Shown here: piece by piece, positions 6,782 to 40,772 of the stretch | Layout of the letters: every line of letters begins with the position of its first letter | Numbering within the stretch: the stretch's first letter is position 1 | Origin: Blastococcus sp. DSM 46786 | GTDB lineage: Bacteria; Actinomycetota; Actinomycetes; Mycobacteriales; Geodermatophilaceae | Length of the DNA stretch: 64,000 nt | Reading direction: 5' to 3' | NCBI RefSeq assembly: GCF_900109665.1 | Contig: NZ_FOAO01000013.1 | Location: 62,001-126,000 of the forward strand | Position numbers and translations under genes: made by a program | Notes under the pieces: model-generated | Databases searched by the model: none | Told to the model about the DNA's origin: nothing | What the model saw: only the letters and a program-made list of their open reading frames with translations

Positions 6782-7126
6782 ATGGGGTTGTTCGGACGGT
6801 GGCGCGCCCGCCGCGGGGCTCCGGGGCGCGTCGGCCGGCCCACCCTCGACCGCGCGTCGCAGCGCGGGGACCTGAAGCACCTGGAGGAGTTCGTGGCCGG
6901 CCGCCGGGGCGTCGAGGGCTTCGTGGAGCCGCGTACGGCGGTCACCGAGGCGACCATCGTGCTGGTGGCGGCCGACGGCGAGTGGACCCGCCGGCGCATC
7001 GACGGCCCCGACGTGGCCCGCCGGCTGTCGAAGGAGCTGGCGATCCCGGTGTACGACGCCCAGGTGACCGGCTACCCCCAGCGGATGCGCGACTGGAGCG
7101 CCCGCCAGAAGCAGAACCGGCTCTGA
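6782..7126 (+). CDS. Conserved small actinobacterial protein of unknown function
   Basis: 114 residues, basic at the N-terminus (MGLFGRWRARRG), then a compact region with TIVLVAADGEWTRRRI and a C-terminal GYPQRMRDW. There are no membrane segments, signal peptide or catalytic motif I recognise. GGAGAAGG sits just before the ATG. It is divergent from lpdA (151 nt between starts), and the stop is followed directly by dispersed repeat copy A. I believe similar short proteins occur beside lpdA/pepA in other actinobacteria, but the function is unknown. Confidence 0.65.
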   Translation: MGLFGRWRARRGAPGRVGRPTLDRASQRGDLKHLEEFVAGRRGVEGFVEPRTAVTEATIVLVAADGEWTRRRIDGPDVARRLSKELAIPVYDAQVTGYPQRMRDWSARQKQNRL

Positions 7127-7232
7127 CACGGCGATCCTCCGGATCGCACCGCGGCCAGGTGCCGTCCCCCGGCCGCGGTGGAGCCGCTTCGTCGTCCCTG
7201 CGCGGACCCCTCCGGGGCCCACTCGGGACGAC
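7124..7232 (+). repeat. Dispersed structured repeat, family 1, copy A
   Basis: The element begins at a TGA stop codon. Then comes a 7-bp hairpin GCGATCC-TCC-GGATCGC, a conserved core ACCGCGGCCAGGTGCCGT, GAGCCGCTTCGTCGTC, and an end near CACTCGGGACGAC. It matches copies B, C and D at 15.98-16.18 and 40.60-40.71 kb. It fills the convergent gap between the small gene at 6782 and pepA. Confidence 0.8.
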
Positions 7233-7244
7233 AACTGCATCGGT

Positions 7245-8759
7245 TCAGGCTTCGGCGATGAGGGCCTCGATGGTCGCCAGCAGGGTGCGCACGGGGACGC
7301 CGGTGCCGCCCTTGGGCGTGTAGCCCCACGGCGCCGAGGTGTTGTAGCTCGGCCCGGCGATGTCGATGTGCGCCCACGGCAGCCCGGCCGGCACGAACTC
7401 GGCGAGGAAGTGGCCGCCGACGAGCATTCCGCCCATCCGGTCGGTGTTGGCGTTCACGAAGTCCGCGACCGTCGAGTCGATCCCCTTGCGCAGCTCGGGG
7501 GGCAGCGGCATCGGCCACATGAGCTCGCCGCTGCGCCCGGCGGCGGCGATCACGGCGTCGCGCAGGTCGTCGCTGCCCATCACACCCGCGGTGCGAGCGC
7601 CGAGCGCGACCATCTGGGCGCCGGTGAGCGTGGAGGTCTCCAGCAGCACGTCGGGGGAGTCCTCGGCCGCGCGGGCGATGGCGTCGGCGAGCACGACGCG
7701 CCCCTCGGCGTCGGTGTTGGTGATCTCCGCCTTCTTGCCGTTGCGGAAGGTGACCACGTCGGCCGGCCGGTAGGCGGTCCCGCTGGGCAGGTTCTCGGCC
7801 ATCGGCACGGTCGCGACGACCTCGACCGGCAGCCCGAGCTGGGCCACGAGGCACACGGTGGCGATCACGGCCGCGGCGCCGGCCATGTCGCTCTTCATGT
7901 CCTCCATCTTCGCGGCGGGCTTGATCGAGATGCCGCCGCTGTCGAAGGTGATGCCCTTGCCGACCAGCGCGACCTTCTTGCGCGCGCCCGTGCCGGCGTA
8001 GCTGAGGCGCAGCAGCCGCGGCTTGCGGGTGGAGCCGCCGCCGACCGCGAGGATGCCGCCGTAGCCACCGGCCGCGAGCGCGTCCTCGTCGAGGATCTCC
8101 GCGGTCAGGCCGAGCTTCTCGCCGGCGGCCGCACCGCGGGCGGCGAACTCGGCGGGGTGGAGGTCGTTCGGCGGGGTGTTGACGAGGTCGCGCACCAGGG
8201 CGACGGCGTCGGCGACCGCCCGCACCCGGCGCAGCGCCGTCTCGGCCGCACCCGCGCCGGGCACGACGATCGTGAACTCGCTCGGCGGGGCCGGGCGGTC
8301 GGCGGGCAGGTGGGACTTGTAGGCGGTGAACTCGTAGGCGCCCAGGAGCGACCCCTCGCCGACGGCGTGCAGCCGTTCGGCGTCGGGCGTGCCGCCCACG
8401 GCGGCGAGCAGGCTGACCACGGAGCGGCGGCCGCGGAGCGCGCGGCTGGCGGCCCCCGCGGCGCGCCGCAGGCTCTCGGGGCGGTAGCCGCCGGACGGCT
8501 CCGGGGCGCCCAGCCCCACGACGGCGACGACCGGGAAGGGGCCCTGGCCGAAGGACGGCAGGCGGGTCACCTCGTCCTCGGCACCGCGGGCGCCGAGGTC
8601 GGTCAGCGCGGGGAGGAGCCGGCCGCCGAGGAGGCGGTCGAGGGCCTCCGCGCCGGGGGTGGGGAGAGGGCCGTCGGGCCCCTTGCCGACGGCGACGACG
8701 ACGGCGTCGCCGGTCAGCTTCTCGAGCGGGTGGTCGGTGGCGGAGATCGTCGGCGGCAC
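7245..8759 (-). CDS. pepA: Leucyl aminopeptidase (M17 family)
   Basis: 504 residues, the usual length. The protein hydrolyses N-terminal amino acids from peptides in the cytoplasm using two metal ions. The C-terminal catalytic half carries VGKGITFDSGGISIKP and the diagnostic NTDAEGRVVLADA, which provide the metal ligands and catalytic residues; the N-terminal third is the variable M17 domain. The start is a GTG at 8759 with TAGGAT ending 6 nt before it, so the message is probably leaderless. It corresponds to pepB (Rv2213) of M. tuberculosis by position. The gap to divergent gcvT is filled with repeats. Confidence 0.95.
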   Translation of the reverse strand: MPPTISATDHPLEKLTGDAVVVAVGKGPDGPLPTPGAEALDRLLGGRLLPALTDLGARGAEDEVTRLPSFGQGPFPVVAVVGLGAPEPSGGYRPESLRRAAGAASRALRGRRSVVSLLAAVGGTPDAERLHAVGEGSLLGAYEFTAYKSHLPADRPAPPSEFTIVVPGAGAAETALRRVRAVADAVALVRDLVNTPPNDLHPAEFAARGAAAGEKLGLTAEILDEDALAAGGYGGILAVGGGSTRKPRLLRLSYAGTGARKKVALVGKGITFDSGGISIKPAAKMEDMKSDMAGAAAVIATVCLVAQLGLPVEVVATVPMAENLPSGTAYRPADVVTFRNGKKAEITNTDAEGRVVLADAIARAAEDSPDVLLETSTLTGAQMVALGARTAGVMGSDDLRDAVIAAAGRSGELMWPMPLPPELRKGIDSTVADFVNANTDRMGGMLVGGHFLAEFVPAGLPWAHIDIAGPSYNTSAPWGYTPKGGTGVPVRTLLATIEALIAEA

Positions 8760-8765
8760 CGGACG

Positions 8766-8771
8766 ATCCTA
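8766..8771 (-). promoter_or_regulatory. -10 element of pepA (leaderless layout)
   Basis: TAGGAT on the minus strand ends 6 nt before the GTG at 8759. The structured repeat at 8775 abuts it on the upstream side. Confidence 0.5.
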
Positions 8772-8774
8772 GAA

Positions 8775-8830
8775 GGACCCCGTTGCCCCCCACCGCTCGC
8801 AGGCTCCCGGCGGGCCCCTGCAACGGGGCC
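8775..8830 (+). repeat. Dispersed structured repeat, family 2, copy 1
   Basis: 56 bp starting GGACCCCGTTGCCCCCC, with outer stem CCCCGTTGC (8778-8786) pairing with GCAACGGGG (8820-8828) and an inner CGCAGGCTC segment. It is closely similar to the element at 50428-50483, where the stem reads CCCCGCTGC/GCAGCGGGG. The two stems differ by a compensatory base pair. Confidence 0.75.
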
Positions 8831-8986
8831 GTTCCAGGATCTCACCGTGCTCGGGACGAGCCTCCGGATGGGGCCGTTGCAGCACGTCACCGGGCTCGCG
8901 GCGGGTCCCTGCGACGGGGCCGTTCCAGCACTTCGCCGGGCTCCTGCAGCGGGGCCGTTCCAGGACGTCGCCACGCCGGGGCAGGC
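8825..8986 (+). repeat. Tandem array with a GGGGCCGTTSCAGS core, four units
   Basis: The 14-nt core starts at 8825, 8870, 8916 and 8951, each followed by a related NNNTCRCC stretch, so units are 35-46 bp. The first core overlaps the end of family 2 copy 1. The array lies wholly in the 288-bp gap between divergent pepA and gcvT. The minus-strand reading frame through it encodes repeated WNGP peptides but has no independent coding support. Confidence 0.7.
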
Positions 8987-9035
8987 GTCCGGGCGGGTCG
9001 GTCCAGCAGGTTCTTCCACCTGGTGCGGGACCCGT

Positions 9036-9041
9036 TAGCGT
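9036..9041 (+). promoter_or_regulatory. -10 element of gcvT (leaderless layout)
   Basis: TAGCGT ends 6 nt before the GTG at 9048. No Shine-Dalgarno is present. Confidence 0.55.
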
Positions 9042-9047
9042 GGCCGC

Positions 9048-10166
9048 GTGACCTCGCGCACCTCGCCCCTCCACGACCGGCACCTCGGGGCCGGGGCCAA
9101 GCTCGCCGACTTCAGCGGCTGGTCCATGCCGATCGAGTACGCCGGTGGTGGCGTGCTGGCCGAGCACGCCGCGGTGCGCGACGGGGTGGGCCTGTTCGAC
9201 GTCTCCCACCTGGGCACCGGGACGGTCCGGGGCGCCGGGGCGGCCGCCTTCGTCGACTCCTGCCTCACCAACGACCTCTCCCGCATCGGGCCGGGGCAGG
9301 CGCAGTACACGATGTGCTGCCTGCCCGACGGCGAGGCCGGTGCCGGAGGTGTGGTCGACGACCTGATCGTCTACCTGCACGGGCCCGACGACGTCCTGCT
9401 GGTGCCCAACGCCGCGAACGCCGCCGAGGTGCTGGCGCGGCTGGCCGACGCGGCCCCGCCCGGCATCGAGGTGGCCGACCGGCACACCGAGGTCGCCGTC
9501 CTCGCCGTGCAGGGGCCGCGGTCGCTGCAGGTCCTGGAGCTGCTGGGGGTGCCCGGCGAGATCGGCTACATGTCGTTCGTGACGGGGACCGGGGGAGCCG
9601 GCGCCGAGGTGACGCTGTGCCGCACCGGCTACACCGGCGAGCACGGCTACGAGCTGCTGGTGGGCGCCGACCGGGCCGGCGAGATGTGGGACGCCGTCCT
9701 GGAGGCCGGGCAGGACCTGGGCATCCGGCCGTGCGGACTGGGCGCCCGCGACACGCTGCGCACCGAGATGGGCTACCCGCTGCACGGGCACGAGCTCTCC
9801 CGGGAGATCAGCCCCGTCCAGGCCCGGGCGGGCTGGGCCGTCGGCTGGCGCAAGCCGGCGTTCTGGGGGCGCGAGGCGCTCCTGGCGGAGAAGGAGGCCG
9901 GGCCGGTGCGCCTGCTGTGGGGGCTGCGGGCGTCCGGCCGCGGCATCCCCCGGCCGGGCATGGCCGTCCTGGACGGCGACGGTGCACAGGTGGGCGAGGT
10001 GACCAGCGGGACCTTCTCGCCCACGCTGCGGACCGGCATCGGCCTGGCGCTGCTCGACGTCGCCGCCGGCGTGGAGGAGGGTGCTCCGCTGACGCTCGAC
10101 GTCCGGGGCCGCCGCGAGCCCGTCGAGGTCGTGCGGCCGCCCTTCGTCCCCTCGCACGTGCGCTGA
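9048..10166 (+). CDS. gcvT: Aminomethyltransferase, glycine cleavage T protein
   Basis: 372 residues, the normal GcvT length. The protein transfers the methylene group of the aminomethyl-lipoyl H protein to tetrahydrofolate, releasing ammonia. Family features include [38 protein letters not shown] at the N-terminus, [15 protein letters not shown] in the middle and [19 protein letters not shown], then the C-terminal barrel. The other glycine cleavage genes (gcvP, gcvH) are not in the window. The position after pepA matches gcvT (Rv2211c) beside pepB in mycobacteria. It converges with the YihY gene, leaving 21 nt with no clear terminator. Confidence 0.95.
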
Positions 10167-10187
10167 GACAGCGCGGCGGGGAGCCGG

Positions 10188-11330
10188 TCAGGGCGCGTTC
10201 TTCCGGGTCGGGTCGCTGTCGCCCTTCTCGGGCTCGGCCTTGGCCGGGAGCGTGTCCGCCTTCACGGCGTCGCGCTCGCCCATCGGCAGGGGATCGCCGG
10301 CGGTGGTGTCGTGGCCGGTCTGGTGCTCGGCCTCGGAGTTGATCTCCGCCCCGAGGAGGACCAGGTAGCAGGTGAGGTACAGCCACAGCATCAGCACGAT
10401 GACACCGGCGATCGCGCCGTAGGTCTTGTCGTAGCTGCCGAAGTTGTTCACGTAGACGGTGAACCCGAGGCTGACCAGCGCCCAGACGACGGTGACGACG
10501 ATCGAGCCGAGGCTGACCCAGCGGATCCTCGGCGCATCCCGGTCGGGGGCCACGCGGTAGAGCACCGCCAGCGAGCCCGCGACGACGGCGAGCAGCGCCA
10601 CCCAGCGGCCGATCTCGGCGAGCACGGTGCCGACCGAGCCCAGCGGCAGCAGGTCGATGACGATCGGCAGCACGGCGACCAGGCCGATGGTCAGGACGAT
10701 GAACACGATGGCGCCGAGCGTCAGGGCCAGGGAGAGCGCCCGGAGCTTGACGAAGTTGCGCGTCTCGACCTCGTCGTAGGCGATGTTCACCGCCTTGACC
10801 AGGTTGTTCACCCCGCCCGAGGCGCTCCACAGCGCCGCGAGGATCGAGAGCACCAGGCTGAGGGTGAGGGCCCCTCCGGCGTTCTCGGTGACGGCGGTGA
10901 CCTGGTCGCGGATCAGCGCCTGCGCGGTCTCGGGCAGGCCGGTGGTGAACTCCTCGACCTGGGCGGCGGCCTCGTCGGGGGAGGCGATGAGGCCGTAGAT
11001 GGAGATCAGCGCCAGCAGCGCCGGGAAGATCGCCAGGAAGCCGAAGAACGCGACCCCGCCGGCGATGATCGGCATGTTGTCGGCGTTGTTCTCCGCCCAC
11101 GCGCGCTTGAGCACCTGCTTCCAGCCGCGCGCCGGGATCTGCGTGGGGGAGCCGGCGTCGATCCCCGGCAGCTGCTCCGGGGCGGGAGCGTCCGGGGGGA
11201 GCCGGTGGGGGTCGCGCGCCGGCCCGCCCTCGGCCGCCGCCCGGGCCGCTGCCGCTCGGCGCGCAGCCTTCTCCTCGACGCGCTGCCGGATGCGGTCGGC
11301 GGCGCTCTCGCGGGGGCGGGTGCCGGTCAC
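10188..11330 (-). CDS. YihY/BrkB-family inner membrane protein
   Basis: 380 residues. A cytoplasmic N-terminal region rich in Arg/Glu is followed by about six hydrophobic segments with the family pattern AENNADNMPIIAGGVAFFGFLAIFPALLALISIYGL and LWSASGGVNNLVKAVNIAY. These proteins were once called ribonuclease BN, but the family is membrane-embedded and its role is unsettled. AGGGAG precedes the GTG at 11330. It is the last gene of a minus-strand run with three small envelope proteins (DUF1469, DUF3618, DUF4235), pointing to an envelope or stress role. Confidence 0.88.
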   Translation of the reverse strand: MTGTRPRESAADRIRQRVEEKAARRAAAARAAAEGGPARDPHRLPPDAPAPEQLPGIDAGSPTQIPARGWKQVLKRAWAENNADNMPIIAGGVAFFGFLAIFPALLALISIYGLIASPDEAAAQVEEFTTGLPETAQALIRDQVTAVTENAGGALTLSLVLSILAALWSASGGVNNLVKAVNIAYDEVETRNFVKLRALSLALTLGAIVFIVLTIGLVAVLPIVIDLLPLGSVGTVLAEIGRWVALLAVVAGSLAVLYRVAPDRDAPRIRWVSLGSIVVTVVWALVSLGFTVYVNNFGSYDKTYGAIAGVIVLMLWLYLTCYLVLLGAEINSEAEHQTGHDTTAGDPLPMGERDAVKADTLPAKAEPEKGDSDPTRKNAP

Positions 11331-11411
11331 GGGGTCTCCCTGGTGCTGGGCCGTCGTCTGAGGAAGGGGGTACCGGTGGCCGGGACCGGCGTCCCGGCCA
11401 CCGGACGGGCG

Positions 11412-11684
11412 TCAGTCGCCCGGCCAGGCCCCGGTGAGCTTGGTGAAGCCCTGCGCGCCCAGGCGGTCGATGGCCGCCTTCGTGGCCGCGAAGATGGCGC
11501 CCTGGAGCGCGGCGGAGACCATGATCTCCCACATCGGGTACTCGGTCTGGAGCGCGTCAGGTGCGTCGTCCTCGCCGCTGATGCGCTTCCACACCTGCTT
11601 GAAGACCGCCCCCGACACGGCACCGGCCAGGATGCCCGCCGTCAGGCCGATCGGCCGGTAGGCGAGCTTGGCTCCCTTGCTCAA
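11412..11684 (-). CDS. DUF4235 small membrane protein
   Basis: 90 residues with two hydrophobic segments (LTAGILAGAVSGAVFKQVW and IMVSAALQGAIFAATKAAI), typical of DUF4235. The start is a TTG at 11684, chosen because AGGAGGAGG lies 5 nt upstream and because it overlaps the stop of the DUF3618 gene (TTGA), which implies translational coupling. The function is unknown; in many actinobacteria DUF4235 follows a DUF3618 and a holin-like gene, as here. Confidence 0.75.
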   Translation of the reverse strand: MSKGAKLAYRPIGLTAGILAGAVSGAVFKQVWKRISGEDDAPDALQTEYPMWEIMVSAALQGAIFAATKAAIDRLGAQGFTKLTGAWPGD

Positions 11685-12139
11685 CGCTTCCTCCTCCTGC
11701 TGCGCCGGGCCTTCTTCTCGGCCCGCTCGGTGGACTTCCGCACGTCCTTGACGGCCTTCTGGGTGGCCTTCCGCCGGGCGGCCAGCTCCTTGCGTGCCCG
11801 CTTCGCCTCGCGCTTGCGACCGACCCGCGCCCCGACGATGAGCTCCTCGGTGCTGGCCCGCCGCCGCGCGCGGCGGCGCCGCCACAGGACCAGGCCGACG
11901 AGGCCGGCCAGCGCCGCGCCGGCACCGGCGAACGCCGGGGGGCTCTCGCGGTAGGTCTCCACGGCGGTGTCCTTGGCGCGGGCGGCGCTCTCCTTCGCCC
12001 GGGCGGGGACGTCGAGCCGCTGGCTCAGCTCGTCGACGGTGCGCCCGAGCTGGTCGCGGGTCTCCTCGATCTCGGCGCGGATGGCGTCGGGGTCGGTCGG
12101 ACCGCTCGAGGCCTGGCCGTCGTCCTGGGGCGTGGTCAC
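11681..12139 (-). CDS. DUF3618 protein with one membrane segment and a very basic tail
   Basis: 152 residues. The N-terminal DPDAIRAEIEETRDQLGRTVDELSQRLD is the DUF3618 signature, predicted helical. One membrane segment (about 70-87) is followed by an Arg/Lys-rich tail that probably stays in the cytoplasm and may contact nucleic acid or phospholipid heads. The GTG at 12139 overlaps the stop of the upstream gene (GTGA). The function is unknown. Confidence 0.78.
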   Translation of the reverse strand: MTTPQDDGQASSGPTDPDAIRAEIEETRDQLGRTVDELSQRLDVPARAKESAARAKDTAVETYRESPPAFAGAGAALAGLVGLVLWRRRRARRRASTEELIVGARVGRKREAKRARKELAARRKATQKAVKDVRKSTERAEKKARRSRRRKR

Positions 12140-12582
12140 CGGCGCGCACTCTCCTTCACGGTGGCGATGTCGGTCTTGACACCGGCCATGGCCTCGGTCG
12201 GCACCGGCGGTGCCCCCTGCTGGACGTCCTTCTTCCCGACGAGGGCGAGGACGCCCGCGATGGCGAAGAGGACCACGGTGACGATCAGCGCGGAGAGCCA
12301 GGCGGGCATCACCAGCGCCAGGGCCAGGATGACCGTGGTGATCAGGGTGGCGAGCCCGAAGAAGGCGACCAGGCCCGCGGCCCCGAAGAGGCCGGCGCCG
12401 AGGCCGAGCTTCTTGGCCTTCTGGGTCATCTCGGCCTGGGCGAGCCGGGCCTCGTCGCGGACAAGGGTGCTCAGCTGCTCGGTGAGCCGGCTGATCAGCT
12501 CGCCGGTGGATGCGTTCTCGGGCTCGGCGCCCACGGCTGCGCGGGTCGCGCCCGCCGTGGTGTCGGGACGGGGTGTGCTCAT
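12136..12582 (-). CDS. DUF1469 / phage-holin-superfamily-III-like membrane protein
   Basis: 148 residues. An amphipathic N-terminal half (STGELISRLTEQLSTLVRDEARLAQAEM) precedes two strong membrane segments (LGAGLFGAAGLVAFFGLATLITTVILALALVM and ALIVTVVLFAIAGVLALVG). The family is called holin-like, but this chromosomal copy sits in a housekeeping envelope cluster with no phage genes near. GGAGG precedes the ATG at 12582. It is the first gene of the run ending with YihY. Confidence 0.8.
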   Translation of the reverse strand: MSTPRPDTTAGATRAAVGAEPENASTGELISRLTEQLSTLVRDEARLAQAEMTQKAKKLGLGAGLFGAAGLVAFFGLATLITTVILALALVMPAWLSALIVTVVLFAIAGVLALVGKKDVQQGAPPVPTEAMAGVKTDIATVKESARR

Positions 12583-12693
12583 CGGTCCTCCGGGTGGACG
12601 GCGTCGATGGAGGTCCATGCCCCCCGCGGCCGGGCCGTAACCGGCGCCGTGATCACAGCCGGGGAACGGTGCGCCCGCTGTGCACCCCGCCAC

Positions 12694-12699
12694 TAACCT
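12694..12699 (+). promoter_or_regulatory. -10 element of the 70-residue gene (leaderless layout)
   Basis: TAACCT ends 6 nt before the ATG at 12706. No Shine-Dalgarno is visible. Confidence 0.5.
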
Positions 12700-12705
12700 G
12701 CCTGC

Positions 12706-12918
12706 ATGAGCTGGCACTGGCGTCTCGAGGACCCGTCCGGATCCACCCTCGACCCCGCGGCGGTGGGGGTGGAGGTGCCGGCGCACGACAACCAGGGCGA
12801 CGCGGAGTCGTGGCTGGGCGAGAACTGGCGGGAGCTGCTCGACCGTGGCGTCGCCACGGTGACCCTGTTCGACGGCGACCAGAAGGCCTACGGGCCCATG
12901 GGGCTCGCCGCCACCTGA
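12706..12918 (+). CDS. Conserved small acidic actinobacterial protein
   Basis: 70 residues: MSWHWRLED at the start, NQGDAESWLGENWRELLDRGV in the middle, and VTLFDGDQKAYGPMGL at the end. It is soluble and acidic, with no signal peptide or metal site. I recognise it as a short family widespread in actinobacteria, without known function. It is supported by the leaderless promoter upstream and by a hairpin terminator that begins inside its last codons. Confidence 0.75.
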   Translation: MSWHWRLEDPSGSTLDPAAVGVEVPAHDNQGDAESWLGENWRELLDRGVATVTLFDGDQKAYGPMGLAAT

Positions 12919-12950
12919 CCCTCTACTCGAGGTCGAGGGTCAGGTGGCGG
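12908..12950. terminator. Bidirectional hairpin terminator
   Basis: Perfect 16-bp inverted repeat CCGCCACCTGACCCTC with an 11-nt loop. The stop codon of the upstream gene lies inside the left arm. It serves the small plus-strand gene and probably also the convergent aldo/keto reductase, whose stop at 12956 is 6 nt away. Confidence 0.8.
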
Positions 12951-12955
12951 GACGC

Positions 12956-13939
12956 TCACCCGCGGGCGGTCTTCGAGGGATCGCGCTCGACGACGTCCCC
13001 GAGGATCGCGTCGATCCGTGTGAGCACGTCGTCGTCCAGGCGGACGCCGGCGGCGGCGACGTCGTCGTGCACCTGCTCGGGGCGGGTCGCACCGATGATC
13101 GCCGCGGCGACGTTGCCGTTCTGCAGCACCCAGGCCACGGCGAGCTGCGCCATCGAGAGGCCGAGGTCACCGGCGATCGGCCGCAGTTGCTGCACCCGGG
13201 CGAGGATGTCGTCGGTCATGAAGCCCTGCATCGACCGGCCGGCCTCGGGGTGGCCGGCCCGGCTGTCGGCCGGCGGCTGCTCGCCCGGCCGGTACTTGCC
13301 GGTCAGGATGCCCTGGGCCAGCGGCGACCAGACGATCTGGGACAGCCCTTCCTGCTCCGACGTGGGCACGACCTCGGCCTCGATGACCCGCCACAGCATC
13401 GAGTACTGCGGCTGGTTGCTGATCAGCTGGATGCCGAGCTCGCGGGCCAGCGCAGCGCCGGACGCGATCTGCTCGGCGTTCCACTCCGAGACGCCGATGT
13501 AGAGGGCCTTGCCCGCCCGGACGAGGTCCGCGAAGGCGGTCATCGTCTCCTCGAGCGGCACCGTGGGGTCGTAGCGGTGGGCCTGGTACAGGTCGACGTA
13601 GTCGGTCTGCAGCCGGCGCAACGAGGCGTGGCAGCTCTCGATGACGTGCTTGCGGCCCAGTCCGCGGTCGTTCCGGCCCGGTCCGGTGGGCCAGTAGACC
13701 TTCGTGAACAGCTCGATCGACTCGCGGCGGTGACCCGCGAGCGCGGCGCCGAGCACGGTCTCGGCGCGGGTGCCGGCGTAGACGTCGGCGGTGTCGAACG
13801 TGGTGATGCCGGCGTCGAGGGCGGCGCGGACGCAGGCGTGCGCGGCATCCTCCTCCACCTGGCCGCCGTGGGTCAGCCAGTTGCCGTACGCGATCTCGGA
13901 GATGGTCAGGCCGGAGCGGCCGAGGCGTCTGAATTCCAC
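12956..13939 (-). CDS. Aldo/keto reductase (potassium channel beta subunit-like branch)
   Basis: 327 residues, an NADPH-dependent TIM-barrel oxidoreductase of unknown substrate. The catalytic tetrad is visible: FDTADVY (D49, Y54), the lysine of LFTKVYW (K80) and the histidine of YQAHRYD. The C-terminal cofactor-binding part includes ATRPEQV. The GTG at 13939 is preceded by TAACGT at 8 nt and excludes sequence that belongs to the neighbouring gene. The start region overlaps nothing, but its -10 lies within the 3' end of the metallo-hydrolase gene. Confidence 0.9.
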   Translation of the reverse strand: MEFRRLGRSGLTISEIAYGNWLTHGGQVEEDAAHACVRAALDAGITTFDTADVYAGTRAETVLGAALAGHRRESIELFTKVYWPTGPGRNDRGLGRKHVIESCHASLRRLQTDYVDLYQAHRYDPTVPLEETMTAFADLVRAGKALYIGVSEWNAEQIASGAALARELGIQLISNQPQYSMLWRVIEAEVVPTSEQEGLSQIVWSPLAQGILTGKYRPGEQPPADSRAGHPEAGRSMQGFMTDDILARVQQLRPIAGDLGLSMAQLAVAWVLQNGNVAAAIIGATRPEQVHDDVAAAGVRLDDDVLTRIDAILGDVVERDPSKTARG

Positions 13940-13947
13940 GGAGCGCG

Positions 13948-13953
13948 ACGTTA
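13948..13953 (-). promoter_or_regulatory. -10 element of the aldo/keto reductase (leaderless layout)
   Basis: TAACGT on the minus strand ends 8 nt before the GTG at 13939. It overlaps the stop codon of the upstream gene (13951-13953). Confidence 0.45.
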
Positions 13954-14760
13954 GGCGCCCGTGCGGAGCGCCGCCCGCCCGGCCCGGGCCTCCACGGTGG
14001 CGCCGTCGGCGACCAGCCGCGCACCGAGCCCGGCCAGGCGCTCGGCCAGCACCGCGGCCGGCGGGTTGTGGTGCCCCAGGTGGACGGCGACGACGTCGGT
14101 GTCGCCGGTGACCGCCCCGGCGGCGCGCAGCCGCGCCAGCTGGTCGGGGAAGGTGCGCAGGTCCAGGTGGCCGGTGCCGTGGTCCAGGACGTCGCCGAAC
14201 GTCTCCTCCAACAGCACGACGTCGTACGCGGCGCCGCGGGTCGCCGCGACGGTGCCGGCGGGCAGCGGCCCGGTGTCGGTGGCGTAGAGGAGCCGGGCGC
14301 CGTCGGGCCCGGTGACGTCGTAGAGCACCGTCGGCACCTCGTGCTCGGCGGCCAGCGCCTGGATCCGGTAGCCCGCGCGGTGCAGCGTCCTGCCGGGTTC
14401 CACCGCGACCAGCTCGACCGGGTCGTCCGGGCCGAGCCAGGGGCGCAGCGTCGTCAGGACGGGAGAGGGGCCGATGACCGTGAGCGGCTCGGCGCGGCGC
14501 ACCCACTGCCGGGCGAGCAGCGTGAGCGGTGCGCAGTGGTCGGCGTGGTCGTGGGTGACCAGGACGGTGCGCACGCCGGCGAGGGAGATGCCGTCCGGGG
14601 GCGGGGCCGGGGCGAGGTCGAGCAGCAGCGTGCCGTCGACGAGTGCCGACGTCGGCCGGCGGAGCTCACCCCGGCTGCGTGACTCGGTGCAGGAGCCGCA
14701 GGTGCACCAGGGGTTCGGCCAGCCGTCGGCGGCGCCGGTGCCGAGCAGGGTGACGCGCAC
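13951..14760 (-). CDS. Metallo-beta-lactamase-fold hydrolase (PhnP-like)
   Basis: 269 residues. MRVTLLGTGAADGWPNPWCTCGSC at the N-terminus and THDHADH near residue 69 are the metal-binding pattern of PhnP-type phosphodiesterases; LYATDTG and LEETFGD supply further ligands, and VHLGHHN is the last. The CxCxxC near residue 19 resembles the structural zinc site of PhnP. The substrate is unknown; related actinobacterial proteins are sometimes associated with cobinamide genes, but none is here. The start is a GTG at 14760 with GGGAG upstream. Confidence 0.85.
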   Translation of the reverse strand: MRVTLLGTGAADGWPNPWCTCGSCTESRSRGELRRPTSALVDGTLLLDLAPAPPPDGISLAGVRTVLVTHDHADHCAPLTLLARQWVRRAEPLTVIGPSPVLTTLRPWLGPDDPVELVAVEPGRTLHRAGYRIQALAAEHEVPTVLYDVTGPDGARLLYATDTGPLPAGTVAATRGAAYDVVLLEETFGDVLDHGTGHLDLRTFPDQLARLRAAGAVTGDTDVVAVHLGHHNPPAAVLAERLAGLGARLVADGATVEARAGRAALRTGA

Positions 14761-14793
14761 GTGCCGCTCCCGCGATCGCTGCCGGCGCCCCGG

Positions 14794-15408
14794 TCAGACG
14801 TCGGCGCCCAGCGGGACCTCCGGCTTCGGGAACCGCCACCGGCGGATCATGGTCGAGCGGCTGATGCCGTACCAGACCAGGCCCTTCATCTTGTGCTTCC
14901 CGTCGGGGAACCGCGCGCGGACGGTGCTCTTGATCTTCCGCCCCAGCAGTACCGAATCCATGATCAGCAGCAGGAAGAAGCCGAGGAGCAGGAAGCTCGT
15001 GTAGCTCTTCACCGCCATGCTGGGCACGAACGTGCCGATCAGGGCCAGGGCGGCGATGGCGAGGAAGAAGCTGCCGACGTTGCGGCGGCTGTCGACGAGG
15101 TCGCGCACGAGCTTGCGCTCCGGCCCGCGGTCGCGGGCGGGAAGGTAGTCGGCATCACCGCGCGAGATGCCCTGACGCGCATCCGCGCGGCGCAGCGCCT
15201 GCTGCTCGCGCATGCGCTTGTAGGCCTCCTTGCGCGTGGTCGGCGGCGGCGGGGGAGGGCCCTGACGCCGGCCCTGCGCCTCGTTCCGCCGCGGCGTCGG
15301 CCGGCCCTTGCCGCCGGACTTGACCAGCTGCGCGGTCAGCTCGCCGTCCTCGCTGGAGGCGGTGGTCGTCTCGGCGGGGTCACGGCGGCCGGGCAGGCGG
15401 AGCTTCAC
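14794..15408 (-). CDS. DUF3043 membrane protein (Rv2203 type)
   Basis: 204 residues. A long polar N-terminal part (PTPRRNEAQGRRQGPPPPP, then KEAYKRMREQQALRRADARQGISRGDADYLPARDRGPERKLVRDLVDSRRN) precedes two membrane segments (SFFLAIAALALIGTFV and YTSFLLLGFFLLLIMDSVLLG) and a basic C-terminus. This is the DUF3043 layout; the function is unknown. The GTG at 15408 was preferred to an ATG 36 nt upstream because TAGACT ends 8 nt before it. It is divergent from the A-type Fe-S carrier, as Rv2203 and Rv2204c are neighbours. Confidence 0.85.
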   Translation of the reverse strand: MKLRLPGRRDPAETTTASSEDGELTAQLVKSGGKGRPTPRRNEAQGRRQGPPPPPPTTRKEAYKRMREQQALRRADARQGISRGDADYLPARDRGPERKLVRDLVDSRRNVGSFFLAIAALALIGTFVPSMAVKSYTSFLLLGFFLLLIMDSVLLGRKIKSTVRARFPDGKHKMKGLVWYGISRSTMIRRWRFPKPEVPLGADV

Positions 15409-15416
15409 GGCCAGGA

Positions 15417-15422
15417 AGTCTA
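15417..15422 (-). promoter_or_regulatory. -10 element of the DUF3043 gene (leaderless layout)
   Basis: TAGACT on the minus strand ends 8 nt before the GTG at 15408. Confidence 0.45.
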
Positions 15423-15464
15423 CGTGTGTGAGCAACGAGGCCACGGACCTCGCGCGGGGAGCCG

Positions 15465-15470
15465 TACAGT
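15465..15470 (+). promoter_or_regulatory. Possible -10 element for the erpA-like gene
   Basis: TACAGT, about 88 nt upstream of the ATG at 15559. No convincing -35 is seen; the call rests on the hexamer and position only. Confidence 0.25.
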
Positions 15471-15558
15471 GGACGCACGGGAAGAGGAGCCGTTCCGGCG
15501 GCGTTGGTCCGTCACGGAACGCGTGCGCGCGGACACCTCGGAGGGAGAGGACAGGAAT

Positions 15559-15906
15559 ATGACGGTGCAGGACACCGCGGCCACCGGCGTCGTGCTCAGC
15601 GACCCCGCGGCCGCCAAGGTCAAGGCTCTGCTGGACCAGGAGGGTCGGGACGACCTGCGGCTGCGCATCGCCGTCCAGCCCGGTGGTTGCTCCGGCCTGC
15701 GGTACCAGCTCTTCTTCGACGAGCGGTTCCTCGACGGTGACCAGACCTACGACTTCGGTGGCGTCGAGGTCATCGTGGACCGGATGAGCGGCCCGTACCT
15801 CGGTGGCGCAGTCATCGACTTCGTCGACAGCATCGAGAAGCAGGGCTTCACGATCGACAACCCCAACGCGCAGGGTTCCTGCGCGTGTGGTGACTCCTTC
15901 AACTGA
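15559..15906 (+). CDS. erpA: A-type iron-sulfur carrier (HesB/IscA/ErpA family)
   Basis: 115 residues. The three conserved cysteines are present: C44 in PGGCSGLRY and C108/C110 in GSCACG near the C-terminus. These ligate the [Fe-S] cluster that is delivered to apo-enzymes. The gene stands alone rather than in a suf or isc operon, and corresponds by position to Rv2204c. The nearby aa3/bcc respiratory genes include a Rieske protein that needs a cluster, but a direct link is inference. AGGA and GAGAGG lie upstream of the ATG at 15559; the longer upstream frame is non-homologous. Confidence 0.92.
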   Translation: MTVQDTAATGVVLSDPAAAKVKALLDQEGRDDLRLRIAVQPGGCSGLRYQLFFDERFLDGDQTYDFGGVEVIVDRMSGPYLGGAVIDFVDSIEKQGFTIDNPNAQGSCACGDSFN

Positions 15907-15915
15907 GTCCCAGCC

Positions 15916-15954
15916 GACGAGGCCCGGTTCCCCGTGGGGGAACCGGGCCTCGTC
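15916..15954 (+). terminator. Rho-independent-type terminator after erpA
   Basis: Perfect 18-bp stem (GACGAGGCCCGGTTCCCC) with a 3-nt loop, followed by GTCTTT. It starts 10 nt after the stop codon. Confidence 0.88.
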
Positions 15955-15976
15955 GTCTTTGCATCGTCTGCTGCCC

Positions 15977-16083
15977 GGTCGCGCCGAGTGGGCCCGGAGG
16001 GTCCGCGTAGGCGTGACGAAACGGCTCCGCGGACCAGGGGAACGGCACCTGGCCGCGGTGCGATCCGGAGGATCGCGGTGTCA
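15977..16083 (-). repeat. Dispersed structured repeat, family 1, copy B
   Basis: Read on the minus strand it begins TGACACC and the hairpin GCGATCC-TCC-GGATCGC (16060-16076), then ACCGCGGCCAGGTGCCGT, GAGCCGTTTCGTCAC and a 3' end near CACTCGGCGCGACC. It is in tandem with copy C, between erpA and asnB. Confidence 0.8.
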
Positions 16084-16177
16084 TGGCCCGGAGGGTCTCC
16101 GTGAGGAGTGACGAAACGGCTCCGCGGCCCTGGGGGACGGCACCTGGCCGCGGTGCGATCCGGGGGATCGCGAGTCA
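16084..16177 (-). repeat. Dispersed structured repeat, family 1, copy C (3' end shortened)
   Basis: Read on the minus strand it begins at the asnB stop codon (TGACTC), then the hairpin GCGATCC-CCC-GGATCGC (16155-16171), the core ACCGCGGCCAGGTGCCGT and GAGCCGTTTCGTCAC. It ends at the junction with copy B, without the CACTCG end. Confidence 0.8.
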
Positions 16178-18106
16178 GAGCCGTACGGGGTAGACCGTCT
16201 CCGGGACGTCGGGGGTGATCCGCTGCTCCACGAAGATCCCGTGCCAGACCATGAAGACCAGCAGCGTCCACAACTTGCGGGAGTGGTCGACGGGTGAGCC
16301 GGCCCGCTGGTTCTGCCGGTGCGCGGTGAGCATGGCGAGGACCTGCTGCTTGTCCAGCCACTCCTCGGTCCCGCTGTCCTCGATGATCTGCCGGGCCCAG
16401 TCGTGGAGGTCCTCGGCCAGCCAGTGGCGCGTGGGGACCGGGAAGCCGAGCTTGCGGCGGTTCAGCACGTGCGGCGGCACGACCCGCTCGAGAGCGCGCC
16501 GCAGGGCGTGCTTCGTCGTCTCCTTGGTGACCCGCTGGCCGACCGGGATGGTCGAGGCCACCCGGAAGACCTCCGGGTCGAGGAACGGGACGCGCAGCTC
16601 CAGCGAGTTGGCCATCGTCATCTTGTCGGCCTTGACGAGGATGTCGCCGCGGAGCCAGGTGAAAAGGTCCACGTATTGCATCGCCGTCACGTCGTCGTAG
16701 CCGGCCGCGCGGGTGCGCTCGTACAGCTCGCGGGTGACGGCGACGTGCGACAGGTCCGGGTCGCGCTTCTCGAGGAAGGTCAGCTCCTCGTCCCGGAAGA
16801 TGCGCGCGTTGCCGTAGTAGCGCTGCTCCAGCGGGATCGAGCCGCGCCGCAGCAGGTCCTTGCCGCGCATTCCGTCGGGCAGCTTGGTGGACAGCGTGCC
16901 GAGAGCGCGCCGGATGCCTCCGGGCAGCTTGTCGAAGGCGGCGAGGGACAGCGGCTCCCGGTAGATGTTGTAGCCGCCGAACAGCTCGTCGGCGCCCTCG
17001 CCGGAGAGCACCACCTTGACGTGCTTGCGCGCCTCGCGGGCCACGAAGTACAGCGGCACGAGCGCCGGGTCGGCGACCGGGTCGTCGAGGTACCAGACGA
17101 CCAGCGGGATCGACTCCGCGAACTCCTCGGGCGTGACGACCTTGGTGATGTGCTCGACCCCGATCGCGGCCGCGGACTCGGCGGCGACGTCGATCTCGGA
17201 GAAGCCGTGCCGCTCGAAGCCGACGGTGAAGGTCCGGAGGTCGGGGTTGTAGCGCTTGGCGAGCGCCGCGATGGCCGTGGAATCGATGCCACCGGAGAGG
17301 AAGGAGCCGACGGTGACGTCGGCCCGCATGTGCACCCGCACGGAGTCGTCCAGCACCTCGGCGATCCGGTCGTAGAGCGCCTGCTGCTCGTCCTTCGCCA
17401 CCGGCCGGATCGGGAAGGAGGGGTGGAAGTAGCGCTCGGTGGACAGCTCGCCGTCGACGACGCGGAAGCGGGTGCCGCTCTCGATGCGCCGGATGCCCCG
17501 GTGCAGCGTCGCCGGCTCCGGCACGTACTGCAGGGTCAGGTAGTGCTGCAGCGAGGCCGGGTCGACGCCGCCGGCCGCCGTGCTGCCGCCCAGCATCTCC
17601 AGCAGCGCCTTCTTCTCGGAGGAGAAGGCGATCGCGCCGTCGGCCAGGCGGGTGGTGAACAGCGGCTTGATCCCGAAGGGGTCCCGGGCGCCGAACACGG
17701 TGCGGGTCTCGCTGTCCCAGATGACGAAGGCGAACATGCCCCGCAGCCGGTCGACGATCTCCTCGCCCCACAGGTGGTAGCCGGCGACGATCGCCTCGGT
17801 GTCGCCCTCGGTGGCGAAGGTCGCACCGGCCGCCGCGAGCTCCTGGCGCAGCTCGACGTAGTTGTAGATCTCACCGTTGAAGACGATCCGGTAGCGGCCG
17901 TCGGCGTAGGGCATCGGCTGGTGGCTGTGCTCGATGTCGATGAAGGCCAGCCGGTTGAAGCCGTAGACGACGCGGTCGTCGTGCCAGACCTCGTTCTCGT
18001 CCGGGCCGCGGTGCCGCAGGCAGTGCAGCGCGTCGCGGACGTCGGACACGACGCCGTCGGTCACGCGTGGGGCGTCGGTCGAGAAGTAGGCGAGCAGGCC
18101 ACACAT
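16175..18106 (-). CDS. asnB: Asparagine synthetase, glutamine-hydrolysing
   Basis: 643 residues. The protein has an N-terminal class II glutamine amidotransferase domain with the nucleophile C2 exposed after Met removal (MCGLLAYF) and RHRGPDENE, and a C-terminal ATP-pyrophosphatase synthetase domain with SFLSGGIDST (P-loop-like) and LSGEGADELFGGY. It converts aspartate, glutamine and ATP to asparagine. It corresponds to asnB (Rv2201). It follows two small membrane protein genes on the same strand (42 nt gap), and its stop is part of repeat copy C. Confidence 0.94.
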   Translation of the reverse strand: MCGLLAYFSTDAPRVTDGVVSDVRDALHCLRHRGPDENEVWHDDRVVYGFNRLAFIDIEHSHQPMPYADGRYRIVFNGEIYNYVELRQELAAAGATFATEGDTEAIVAGYHLWGEEIVDRLRGMFAFVIWDSETRTVFGARDPFGIKPLFTTRLADGAIAFSSEKKALLEMLGGSTAAGGVDPASLQHYLTLQYVPEPATLHRGIRRIESGTRFRVVDGELSTERYFHPSFPIRPVAKDEQQALYDRIAEVLDDSVRVHMRADVTVGSFLSGGIDSTAIAALAKRYNPDLRTFTVGFERHGFSEIDVAAESAAAIGVEHITKVVTPEEFAESIPLVVWYLDDPVADPALVPLYFVAREARKHVKVVLSGEGADELFGGYNIYREPLSLAAFDKLPGGIRRALGTLSTKLPDGMRGKDLLRRGSIPLEQRYYGNARIFRDEELTFLEKRDPDLSHVAVTRELYERTRAAGYDDVTAMQYVDLFTWLRGDILVKADKMTMANSLELRVPFLDPEVFRVASTIPVGQRVTKETTKHALRRALERVVPPHVLNRRKLGFPVPTRHWLAEDLHDWARQIIEDSGTEEWLDKQQVLAMLTAHRQNQRAGSPVDHSRKLWTLLVFMVWHGIFVEQRITPDVPETVYPVRL

Positions 18107-31814: not shown

Positions 31815-31861
31815 TCACGCCGTCCGGCCGGGTGGTCGTCATCCGTCGATGGATGGCCTCG

Positions 31862-32027
31862 ACCGGACACCGCCTAATCACCGCCGGACGCGCACCACTG
31901 GCGCCCGGGGTGTACCGGGGACCCACCGCAGTTCTGGGGTGAGTTCTCCCGCAGCCGGCCCGCCGGTGCGCGGGGGATAGGGCCAGTCTTCCCAGCCCGA
32001 ACCCGTCAGCTAACTCGGTCGGCGGTT
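31862..32027 (+). promoter_or_regulatory. ydaO/yuaA-type c-di-AMP riboswitch
   Basis: The sequence matches the actinobacterial ydaO class from memory: CACCGCCTAATC near the 5' end, GGGGACCCACCGCAG (31917-31931), TGGGGTGAG, and the conserved 3' segment CCCGAACCCGTCAGCTAAC (31996-32014). In actinobacteria this RNA controls cell-wall hydrolase genes such as rpf and NlpC/P60 genes, and c-di-AMP binding turns expression off. Here it lies directly before an NlpC/P60 gene, 30 nt from the start. The boundaries are approximate. Confidence 0.88.
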
Positions 32028-32056
32028 GCAGAGGAAGAAACGGAGAGCCGCCGCTC

Positions 32057-35677: not shown

Positions 35678-35730
35678 GAACCATCACCCACGTCGTGGGG
35701 CCTGCGGACGTAGGTAGTGGTTCCTATGCC
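35671..35730. terminator. Bidirectional terminator between pimB and fadD15
   Basis: Outer 13-bp perfect arms GGCATAGGAACCA and TGGTTCCTATGCC (35671-35683, 35718-35730), with an inner CCCACG/CGTGGG-type palindrome. The pimB stop codon TAG lies inside the left arm. It is AT-richer than the surroundings. Confidence 0.7.
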
Positions 35731-35749
35731 CCCTGGTAGGGGTCGGTGC

Positions 35750-37543: not shown

Positions 37544-37687
37544 GCCCGGTCCTCTCCTCCCCGACCGCCCGCCGGGCTCCGTCGCCCGCGGCCCCGGTGC
37601 GGGAACGTCCGGGCCAATCTAGCGGCTGGTGCTACCCGGCAGTAGCGGAGTGCCGTGGTGCGCGGGGCCGGTCGGGGCCCGAGCAGC

Positions 37688-37693
37688 TAGCCT
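37688..37693 (+). promoter_or_regulatory. -10 element of the SRPBCC-ArsA-glk operon (leaderless layout)
   Basis: TAGCCT ends 7 nt before the ATG at 37701. Confidence 0.55.
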
Positions 37694-37700
37694 GCTGCCC

Positions 37701-38132
37701 ATGGCCGACCAGTCCACCCAGTCGATCGTCGTCGAGGCGCCTGCGGCCGAGGTCATGGCGGTGATCGCCGACTTCCCCTCCTACCCGCAGTGGGTCGCCG
37801 CCGCCAAGAAGGTCGAGGTGCTCGAGACGGGTGCGGACGGCCGGGCCCGCCGCGTGCACTTCGTGCTCGACGCCGGGGCGGTGAAGGACGACTACGTCCT
37901 GGAGTACACGTGGGACGACGACCGCCGCGTCTCCTGGACCCTGGTCAAGGGCCAGATGCAGAAGCGGCAGGAGGGCTCCTACACCCTCGTCGAGACCGGC
38001 GGCCGCACCGAGGTCACCTACTCGATCACCATCGACCTCTCCATCCCGATGCTCGGCATGATCAAGCGGAAGGCCGAGAAGGTCATCCTCGACACCGCGC
38101 TCAAGGAGCTCAAGAAGCGCGTCGAGGGCTGA
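37701..38132 (+). CDS. SRPBCC-family lipid-binding-fold protein (Rv2185c type)
   Basis: 143 residues with the START/SRPBCC pattern: SIVVEAPAAEVMAVIADFPSYPQWV at the N-terminus, a beta-sheet middle (VHFVLDAGAVKDDYVLEYTW) and a long C-terminal helix (IKRKAEKVILDTALKELKKRVEG). It probably binds a hydrophobic ligand in a cavity; the ligand is unknown. It is the first gene of a four-gene plus-strand operon with overlapping or closely spaced junctions, also found around Rv2185c-Rv2183c. Confidence 0.88.
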   Translation: MADQSTQSIVVEAPAAEVMAVIADFPSYPQWVAAAKKVEVLETGADGRARRVHFVLDAGAVKDDYVLEYTWDDDRRVSWTLVKGQMQKRQEGSYTLVETGGRTEVTYSITIDLSIPMLGMIKRKAEKVILDTALKELKKRVEG

Positions 38133-38138
38133 GCCGCG

Positions 38139-39287: not shown

Positions 39288-39607
39288 CCAGCGGTGCCGA
39301 CTGGGCCGACCAGGCCCGCCGTCTCTTCGACGCCGTCCGCGCCGGAGCCGGGCAGACCCCCGCCACCGGTACCGGGGAGCACGGCGGCGACGACTGCCGC
39401 TGGTGCCCGGTCTGCCAGGTGGCGGCCGTCCTGCGCGGTGAACGCCCGGAGGTGACCGCCGCGCTGGCCGACGTCCTCACCGCCGCCGCGACCGCTCTGC
39501 GGTCGTTCGCCGAGCAGCCGGCCGACGGTGCCGGCGAGGCGGCCGGGCCGCGCCCCGAGGAGCAGGCGGCCGCGCAGCCGGCCGTCCAGCGGATCGACAT
39601 CGCGTGA
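39284..39607 (+). CDS. Small CxxC protein (Rv2183c type)
   Basis: 107 residues. A short helix (ADWADQARRLFDAVRAG), then CRWCPVCQ, which offers C-x-x-C-x-x-C for zinc or redox chemistry, then a second helix (VTAALADVLTAAATALRSFAEQP) and a polar tail. The function is unknown. The start ATGA overlaps the ArsA-like stop, and its own stop overlaps the glucokinase start, so all three are translated together. Confidence 0.78.
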   Translation: MTSGADWADQARRLFDAVRAGAGQTPATGTGEHGGDDCRWCPVCQVAAVLRGERPEVTAALADVLTAAATALRSFAEQPADGAGEAAGPRPEEQAAAQPAVQRIDIA

Positions 39608-40602
39608 CCGGGCCGGAGGTGACGGCCCTGCCGGCGCTCGGCATCGACATCGGCGGGACCAAGGTCGCCGGAGGGCTGGTGGCTCCCGACGGCGAGATGA
39701 TGGCCACCGCCCGGCGGGCGACGCCCGGGGCCTCGGTGAGCGACACCGAGGACGCCATCGCCGCCGTCGTCGCGGAACTCGCCGAGGGGCACGAGGGCGA
39801 GATCGTCGGGGTCGGCGTGGGCGCCGCCGGGTGGTTCGACCGCACCGGGGACACCGTGCTGTTCAGCCCGCACCTGGCCTGGCGCAACTCGACGCTGCGC
39901 AAGGACCTCGCCGCGCGCCTGCAGCGCCCGCTGTGGGTGGGCAACGACGCCGATGCCGCGGCCTGGGCCGAGTACCGCTACGGCGCCGCCCGCGGCGCCG
40001 ACCTGGCGCTGATGATCACCCTCGGCACCGGCATCGGCGGGGGGATCGTCCTCGACGGGCGGCTGCGGCGCGGCTCGCACGGCGTCGCGGGGGAGTGGGG
40101 GCACATGCGCGTCGTCCCCGACGGCCGGCTGTGCGCCTGCGGCAACCGGGGCTGCTGGGAGCAGTACGCCAGCGGGACGGCGCTGGGGCAGACCGCGCGC
40201 GAGGTGGCCCGCACCTCGCCGGCCGCGGCCGCCCTGCTGCTGGAGCGGGTCGACTGCGAGCCCGACCGGCTGACCGGCGAGCACGTGGCCCGCGCGGCCT
40301 ACGACGGCGACCCGCTCGCCCTGGAGCTGGTCACCGAGGTCGGCTGCTGGCTGGGCCAGGGGATCGCCGACCTGGCCGCCGTGCTCGATCCCGAGGTGGT
40401 GGTGATCGGCGGCGGCGTCAGCGTGCTCGGCGAGATGGTGCTGCGCCCGGCCCGCGAGCGGCTCGAGCGCGCCCTGCCCGGCCGCGGGTTCCGCCCCGGT
40501 CCCCGCGTCGTCGCCGCCGCGCTCGGTGCCCAGGCCGGCATCGTCGGCGCGGCCGACCTGGTGCGGAATGACATCGCCGCCCTCCGGGCGGCACCGCTTT
40601 GA
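39604..40602 (+). CDS. glk: ROK-family glucokinase
   Basis: 332 residues. The protein phosphorylates glucose with ATP or possibly polyphosphate. LGIDIGGTKVAGGLV is the phosphate loop, LGTGIGGGIVLDGRLRRGSHGVAGEWGHM carries sugar-binding residues, and CACGNRGCWEQYASG is the ROK zinc motif. There is no N-terminal DNA-binding domain, so it is an enzyme rather than a repressor. It ends a four-gene operon, as glucokinase does beside the SRPBCC/ArsA genes in streptomycetes. The stop is directly followed by repeat copy D. Confidence 0.9.
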   Translation: MTGPEVTALPALGIDIGGTKVAGGLVAPDGEMMATARRATPGASVSDTEDAIAAVVAELAEGHEGEIVGVGVGAAGWFDRTGDTVLFSPHLAWRNSTLRKDLAARLQRPLWVGNDADAAAWAEYRYGAARGADLALMITLGTGIGGGIVLDGRLRRGSHGVAGEWGHMRVVPDGRLCACGNRGCWEQYASGTALGQTAREVARTSPAAAALLLERVDCEPDRLTGEHVARAAYDGDPLALELVTEVGCWLGQGIADLAAVLDPEVVVIGGGVSVLGEMVLRPARERLERALPGRGFRPGPRVVAAALGAQAGIVGAADLVRNDIAALRAAPL

Positions 40603-40707
40603 CTCCGTCGTCCTCCGGACGACACCGCGGCCAGGTGTCGTACCCCTGGTGCGCCGAGCCGTTTCGTCGTCGCTGCGCGGAACCCTCCGGGCCCCACTCG
40701 CGACGAC
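40600..40707 (+). repeat. Dispersed structured repeat, family 1, copy D
   Basis: The element begins at the glk stop codon: TGACTCC, then the hairpin GTCGTCC-TCC-GGACGAC (40607-40623), ACCGCGGCCAGGTGTCGT, GAGCCGTTTCGTCGTC and an end at CACTCGCGACGAC. The hairpin differs from copies A-C at three base pairs, each compensated. Confidence 0.8.
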
Positions 40708-40730
40708 CATGCCGATGCCTGGGCGGCCCC

Positions 40731-40772
40731 CGTCGCTCCTCGCGGAGGCCTCCGGCCCCCACTCGTCACGAC
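40731..40772 (+). repeat. Partial family 1 repeat (3' half), copy D'
   Basis: GTCGCTCCTCGCGGAGGCCT...CCCCCACTCGTCACGAC repeats the 3' half of copy D without the hairpin and core. The stop codon of the TIGR00300 gene (40766-40768) lies inside it. Confidence 0.6.

Follow-up and report, generated by a model that had tools for sequence, protein, structure and literature searches.

A dispersed two-hairpin repeat of Geodermatophilaceae that probably docks in fixed register at stop codons

In a 64,000-nucleotide stretch of the genome of Blastococcus sp. DSM 46786 (contig NZ_FOAO01000013.1, positions 62,001 to 126,000 of the forward strand; hereafter the window), we characterise a repeat of about 110 nt with two hairpins, which is found at the 3' ends of genes. 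We consider it likely that this is a non-autonomous dispersed repeat of the REP/BOX/RUP kind, docking in a fixed register at stop codons: its copies enter, or directly adjoin, gene 3' ends, with the first hairpin (H1) beside the stop codon. Consistent with a small dispersed non-autonomous repeat, it occurs in many copies, is intergenic, and is present or absent at orthologous sites.

Structure, abundance and host range

From its head, the unit reads TGACAYY, H1, ACC, a conserved core, a spacer and a second hairpin (H2). H1 is a 17-nt hairpin with a 7-bp stem and a TCC loop, the core comprises 18 nt (ACCGCGGCCAGGTGCCGT), and the spacer between core and H2 contains GAGCCG. H2 is a 42-nt hairpin with an outer 8-bp stem, an inner stem and a TCC loop, followed by a weak tail, M-N-N-G-C. 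At some loci there are head-to-tail arrays, in which core and H2 alone recur in 84-nt steps, or H1 units stand in front.

A covariance model (R1) based on 20 copies from the source genome gave at least 75 matches at E<=0.01 there, where 150 first-look candidates were scored. The core occurs 70 times with up to two mismatches, compared with 8 occurrences of the reversed pattern, and together these counts indicate that the repeat is not a product of chance. In a survey of 60 genomes, run with stricter filters and with at most 64 candidates scored per genome, 32 were positive: the source genome, 21 of 22 others of its genus and 10 of 13 from other genera of the family. None of the 24 genomes from other families of the order gave a match to the covariance model, and G003 was the sole genome of the genus without one. 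Copies per genome range from 0 to about 75, with 63 in G007. One strict pattern, searched against named records, found 36 stretches, distributed among Blastococcus (17), Geodermatophilus (11), Modestobacter (2), Klenkia (2), Trujillonella (1), Goekera (1) and an unnamed genus (2); all named carrier genera belong to Geodermatophilaceae. A viral collection held no match to one strict pattern of the repeat. So far, the repeat has thus been found in this family only. A literature search by title and abstract, whose coverage mostly excluded subscription papers, found no description of it; two candidates for an earlier description (PMC5768760 and PMC9686282) were set aside, their subject, in the parts available, being CRISPR rather than this repeat.

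The window itself holds the four copies and one partial copy that an earlier note on this DNA had reported, with one H1 unit in addition:

7124..7232, plus strand: copy A, full length (119.4 bits); gene 6782-7126 ends at its TGA (7124-7126)
7131..7147, plus strand: H1 of copy A, 7-bp stem and TCC loop
7148..7165, plus strand: core of copy A, ACCGCGGCCAGGTGCCGT
7191..7232, plus strand: H2 of copy A, 42 nt with outer 8-bp stem; the upper stem pairs better on the minus strand
15976..16083, minus strand: copy B, full length (111.3 bits), in tandem behind C; its TGACACC start lies within the tandem
16084..16177, minus strand: copy C, H2 end missing (62.5 bits over 16093-16177); gene 16175-18106 (minus strand) ends at its TGA (16177-16175)
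40569..40596, plus strand: extra H1 unit (E = 0.021), within the 3' end of gene 39604-40602, where relatives have a different C-terminus
40600..40707, plus strand: copy D, full length (122.7 bits); gene 39604-40602 ends at its TGA (40600-40602)
40607..40623, plus strand: H1 of copy D, with three compensated pairs relative to copy A
40666..40707, plus strand: H2 of copy D
40731..40772, plus strand: partial copy E, H2 only (covariance model E = 0.0021); the stop of the convergent gene (TCA, 40766-40768) lies within its end

Genes were called with a simple script that scores codons and was trained on the window, and some contexts may be miscalled. The calls agree with the earlier note that the upstream gene's TGA forms the start of A, C and D, and that B, inside the tandem, opens with TGACACC.

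Register behind stop codons

Gene contexts were counted for the first copy of each array only, in the source genome (59 copies) and in the complete genomes G007 (53) and G021 (29). Among these 141 copies, 67 lie in convergent gaps, 37 in co-directional gaps in sense orientation, 30 in co-directional gaps in antisense, 6 in divergent gaps, and 1 could not be assigned. The earlier placement of every copy between convergent genes consequently holds for all three gaps of the window, but not genome-wide. Relative to unoccupied gaps of at least 30 nt in the loci of the source genome, convergent gaps are favoured (odds ratio 10.7) and divergent gaps avoided (0.07); absolute occupancy carries no meaning here, because these loci were fetched for holding copies. 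A further 92 copies from other genomes, obtained through high score, exact core or site searches, comprise 44 convergent, 33 sense, 7 antisense, 4 divergent and 4 unassigned cases. Sense orientation is favoured in the co-directional gaps of this set (33 versus 7), whereas in the full sets, with 37 sense and 30 antisense, it is not clearly so.

The position of H1 relative to the stop codon is more strictly defined. Among the 106 copies whose upstream gene is in sense orientation, H1 begins exactly 4 nt past the stop in 29, where 3.4 would be expected, and 2-7 nt past the stop in 51, where placement anywhere in the gap would give 20.1. The enrichment at 3' ends and in convergent gaps that the note had proposed to look for is therefore present. 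The H2 end has no such fixed register. Stops located 3-5 nt ahead of H1 in the source genome comprise 13 TGA and 2 TAA; given a background of 310 TGA, 35 TAG and 12 TAA among all called genes, TGA is not over-used at docked copies. The head before H1 is TGAC- or TGAT-like, and C directly follows TGA at 142 of the 310 TGA stops. Both complete genomes have a copy at the stop of the first gene of the contig, by its look dnaA (L291 2004 and L339 1771).

Variable presence at orthologous sites

Four sites, those of copies A, D and BC together with a site F, which lies within an operon (L012), were compared across 23 genomes of the genus, including the source genome. Presence is variable at all four, with 3, 2, 7 and 8 carriers of 23 at A, D, BC and F respectively, so that sites without the repeat do exist in relatives, as the dispersed-element idea of the note had anticipated. 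On a tree built from coding sequence that flanks three of the sites (about 2 kb), the 20 carriers entail 19 changes (A 3, D 2, BC-left 4, BC-right 3, F 7). Even sister genomes differ, G014 being filled and G015 empty at both BC and F.

At site BC, a GC-rich hairpin resembling a terminator is found in every gap, with a perfect stem of at least 11 bp in 21 of 23 genomes and an imperfect one in G003 and G005 (by eye), and the left genes of all 23 end at the same codon. The repeat stands behind the left gene in the source genome and in G011 (two copies each), G014 and G018, and behind the right gene, turned round, in G016, G007 and G002, while 16 genomes have none; H1 points to the stop codon on whichever flanking gene it adjoins. 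At site F one of the eight carriers is a remnant (G010), and the 15 non-carriers all share one stop position, which in many of them overlaps the next start as GTGA. Junctions at BC and F, read by eye, show no clean target duplication.

Besides its three carriers, site A includes many species with unrelated palindromes and two with gaps of 17-19 nt. At least five non-carriers have the same stop codon and most others stop within four codons of it (two of the 23 were unread). At site D, by eye, the source genome and G019 carry copies at the same coding position and the other 21 genomes end VAEGEA-like; the G019 gene reads on into the repeat and ends at an inner TGA. G007 and G020 have a short core-like stretch here, which is possibly a remnant. 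The proposal that the element brings its own stop codon consequently survives only at D, where the C-terminus is replaced, and fails at BC (23 of 23), at F (15 of 15 non-carriers) and in at least five genomes at A.

In relatives, the slot corresponding to 7127-7244 (L160-L179) holds unrelated palindromes, namely GTCCTCCCTCACCG.../GATCAGGTCACCTGATC units, GGAAAGTGCAC-type units and GTTCCA units. It thus seems that, at the 3' ends of genes, several hairpin families take one another's place. Within the window, a repeat containing CCTGCARCGGGGCCGTTCCAG and resembling the GTTCCA units of relatives at site A occurs three times close to a gene junction (8802-8978). At L035 3020-3150 a copy of the present repeat is broken off past the core and continued by a GTCCCTCACCG/GATCAGGTCACCTGATC unit, forming a mosaic of two families.

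Covariation of the hairpins

Pair counts were made on 251 distinct copies drawn from 288 model matches, with H1 anchored in 214 (51 distinct stems) and H2 in 213 (115 distinct); outer H2 was anchored in 100 of 167 copies, 99 of them distinct. Covariation was measured in a set (A5) of 94 matches from G007 and G021, which lay outside model building but were aligned to the model structure. Here 88.8% of cells are paired, 17 of 21 pairs vary on both sides (295 such cells), and both hairpins covary; the covariation score is 0.331, compared with at most 0.040 in slid versions, and 0 of 500 shuffles reached it. The three differing and compensated pairs between H1 of A and D, from which the earlier note argued for a selected structure, are thus borne out in a larger alignment.

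An RNA on the sense strand, one form of the RNA (or cruciform) structure that the note had suggested, is not supported. Across 357 loop-anchored H1 cells of the 51 stems, 315 are Watson-Crick (217 when shuffled), 8 G-T, 12 A-C and 22 neither, and in outer H2 the ratio of G-T to A-C is 12/14. Wobble intermediates are therefore rare and nearly symmetric, which is easier to reconcile with a DNA palindrome than with a sense-strand RNA. At pairs 4-6 of the upper H2 stem, 109 of 345 cells are A-C, equivalent to G-U on the bottom strand, and 1 is G-T. Over the nine inner H2 pairs, 0.830 of cells are pairable on the bottom strand and 0.707 on the top, and among 39 H2 copies of 42 nt that were selected because their outer arms pair and their loop is TCC, the inner stem is pairable in 345 of 351 cells on the bottom versus 267 of 351 on the top (alifold -28.8 versus -18.5). 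The upper H2 stem is thus suggestive of the bottom strand. A-C over the nine inner pairs was nevertheless seen 146 times against 140 when shuffled, i.e. it reflects column make-up. The fold energy excess of the whole element is small (40 and 41 of 60), and we discarded its asymmetry as a strand signal, being mostly base composition.

Searches for terminators, known RNAs and transposases

A T-run (at least 4 T in 8 nt) follows H2 at 0 of 99 ends, these being the 3' ends scored among the 251 copies, and so the repeat is not a classical terminator; on the opposite strand behind H1 a T-run occurs in 7 of 210. A terminator scan of window positions 5000-18000 reported none in copies A-C, and also missed the conserved BC hairpin. 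In an Rfam search of the window no copy matched at gathering score; the only two matches, located elsewhere, were riboswitches, for c-di-AMP (31861-32040, plus strand) and ZMP/ZTP (61113-61197, minus strand).

Enzyme searches of carrier genomes covered Y1 transposases and reverse transcriptases (RVT_1). A reverse transcriptase was considered as a partner and rejected as not required, because G007 has 63 copies without one. An insertion sequence (IS) with ends TTGCCGTTTAACC/GGTTAAACGGCAA, whose left end was found in 1 of 60 genomes (the source genome) at 6 places, has loci at L025 about 3078, L155 1-330, L156 1-360 and L259-L264. Over its first 72 residues, the transposase of this IS resembles DDE_5, with a score below cut-off, and part of NF041680. 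The IS inserts at GCTNAGC-like 7-mers, and 2 of the 6 insertions lie within repeat copies, at the same position and adjoining contig ends. Specific targeting of the repeat by this IS was rejected: since all six left ends are at GCTNAGC-like sites, the repeat is only one target among others.

Proposed mechanism and alternative explanations

Under the dispersed-repeat reading, copies would be made by an enzyme acting in trans that recognises the paired hairpins and core, the substrate probably being single-stranded DNA, and the H1 end would be joined to a (T)GAC-like target. TGA-C stop contexts being common and tolerant of insertion, many copies would survive there. Moreover, the ...GAC end of a copy, together with a following ACC, could recreate a TGACACC-like docking site and so give rise to arrays. 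Effects on host genes, such as a new hairpin in the 3' untranslated region (UTR), a lost stop/start overlap or an altered C-terminus, would then be by-products.

Several observations weigh against this reading. An autonomous partner, target duplication and an active jump were not demonstrated by searches for Y1 and RVT_1 and by junctions read by eye. The Y1 (HUH) transposase PF01797 was found in none of the source and 13 other same-genus genomes (5 of 14 controls were positive), and among 14 genomes of the genus a reverse transcriptase occurs in the source genome and G011 only, not in G007. Some tree nodes are weak, the tree resting on about 2 kb of flank, so that recombination is possible; a rare H1 variant is common to most site F carriers, implying that part of the pattern reflects old insertion followed by loss or recombination. 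TGAC stands ahead of H1 in 21 of 72 copies without stop fusion, and consequently target and element end cannot be separated. A replication-fork bias is absent from the convergent copies of the complete genomes G007 and G021 (22 of 39). A more specific variant, to which we attach a tentative and clearly lower probability, is a stop-codon-homing element, in which a non-Y1 recombinase would read the folded bottom strand and join the H1 end to TGA(C); the fixed register would then spare the host gene and leave each copy able to receive the next in tandem.

A terminator of convergent genes, perhaps bidirectional and spread for its usefulness, would explain the enrichment in convergent gaps and the fact that the site A gap of the source genome holds little else, in a slot that many species fill with different palindromes. 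The absent T-run is weak evidence here, because the scan also misses the conserved BC hairpin. We nevertheless regard this explanation, a form of which the earlier note had offered, as unlikely: 0 of 99 ends have a T-run and the scan was negative for copies A-C, gaps at BC contain the hairpin whether or not they hold the repeat, site F is internal to an operon, each of A, D and F has species in which it is bare, and one genome of the genus lacks any match. Still less likely is an RNA element of the 3' UTR that would work on the ribosome during termination or shield the mRNA end, with the 4-nt stop distance as a functional feature. The exact spacing, the covariation and the sense excess of the 92-copy set (33 versus 7) speak for it; however, 30 of 67 co-directional copies are antisense in the complete sets, sense-strand G-U is scarce (8 of 357 cells in H1, 1 of 345 in upper H2 pairs 4-6), and orthologues manage without the repeat. 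An antisense-strand RNA as the selected molecule, for example one blocking transcription that enters the gene from behind, draws on the better bottom-strand pairing of H2 (345 versus 267 of 351 cells; 0.830 versus 0.707 in the wider set) and the 109 bottom-strand G-U against one G-T. Yet the A-C count over the nine inner pairs equals column make-up, G-T and A-C are nearly symmetric in H1 (8/12) and outer H2 (12/14), the whole-element excess is small, and co-directional copies have no obvious antisense source, and we consider this explanation highly improbable.

If the docking-repeat reading is true, this is a REP/BOX counterpart for a family of actinobacteria, with an unusual stop-codon register at one end. 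Since filled and empty sites are plentiful and no Y1 transposase was found, how such repeats move becomes testable. Annotators should note that copies can replace or lengthen the C-terminus of a protein and, within operons, disrupt stop/start overlaps.

Comparison with known repeat systems

REPs situated close behind a stop codon can affect translation. REP/BIME sequences are non-autonomous palindromes located outside genes; bases 5' of their hairpin are conserved, they form higher-order arrays, and some ISs target REPs (PMC2817692). The Geodermatophilaceae repeat shares the extragenic palindromes, the conserved bases 5' of a hairpin and the arrays, but its core of 18 nt is flanked by two dissimilar hairpins, its arrays run head to tail, and its head is TGAC rather than the GTAG/GTGG of REP (PMC2817692). 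Unlike in REP/RAYT systems, no Y1 transposase was found in the source and 13 other same-genus genomes.

The repeats of Streptococcus pneumoniae provide a further parallel. BOX and RUP are short, strongly folding and dispersed (RUP is 107 bp, BOX modular), are over-represented between convergent genes, can disrupt or extend open reading frames (ORFs), and are thought to be mobile and non-autonomous; together with SPRITE they have been interpreted as mobile repeats that are tolerated and that are enriched in convergent gaps (PMC3049150). SPRITE comprises terminator-like hairpin repeats with a U-rich tract, likewise in convergent gaps (PMC3049150). Our repeat resembles SPRITE as a dispersed hairpin repeat concentrated in convergent gaps, but the U-rich tract of SPRITE has no equivalent at the 99 ends scored here. 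Miniature inverted-repeat transposable elements with DDE transposases (traits per PMC3049150) are similarly small, non-autonomous and dispersed, whereas the present repeat is GC-rich rather than AT-rich, has separate hairpins at its ends instead of joining terminal inverted repeats, and showed no clear target duplication. The closest likeness in behaviour is to BOX and RUP, as short folding dispersed repeats of convergent gaps that disrupt or extend ORFs; what sets the Geodermatophilaceae repeat apart from them is its fixed register behind stop codons and its spread over a bacterial family.

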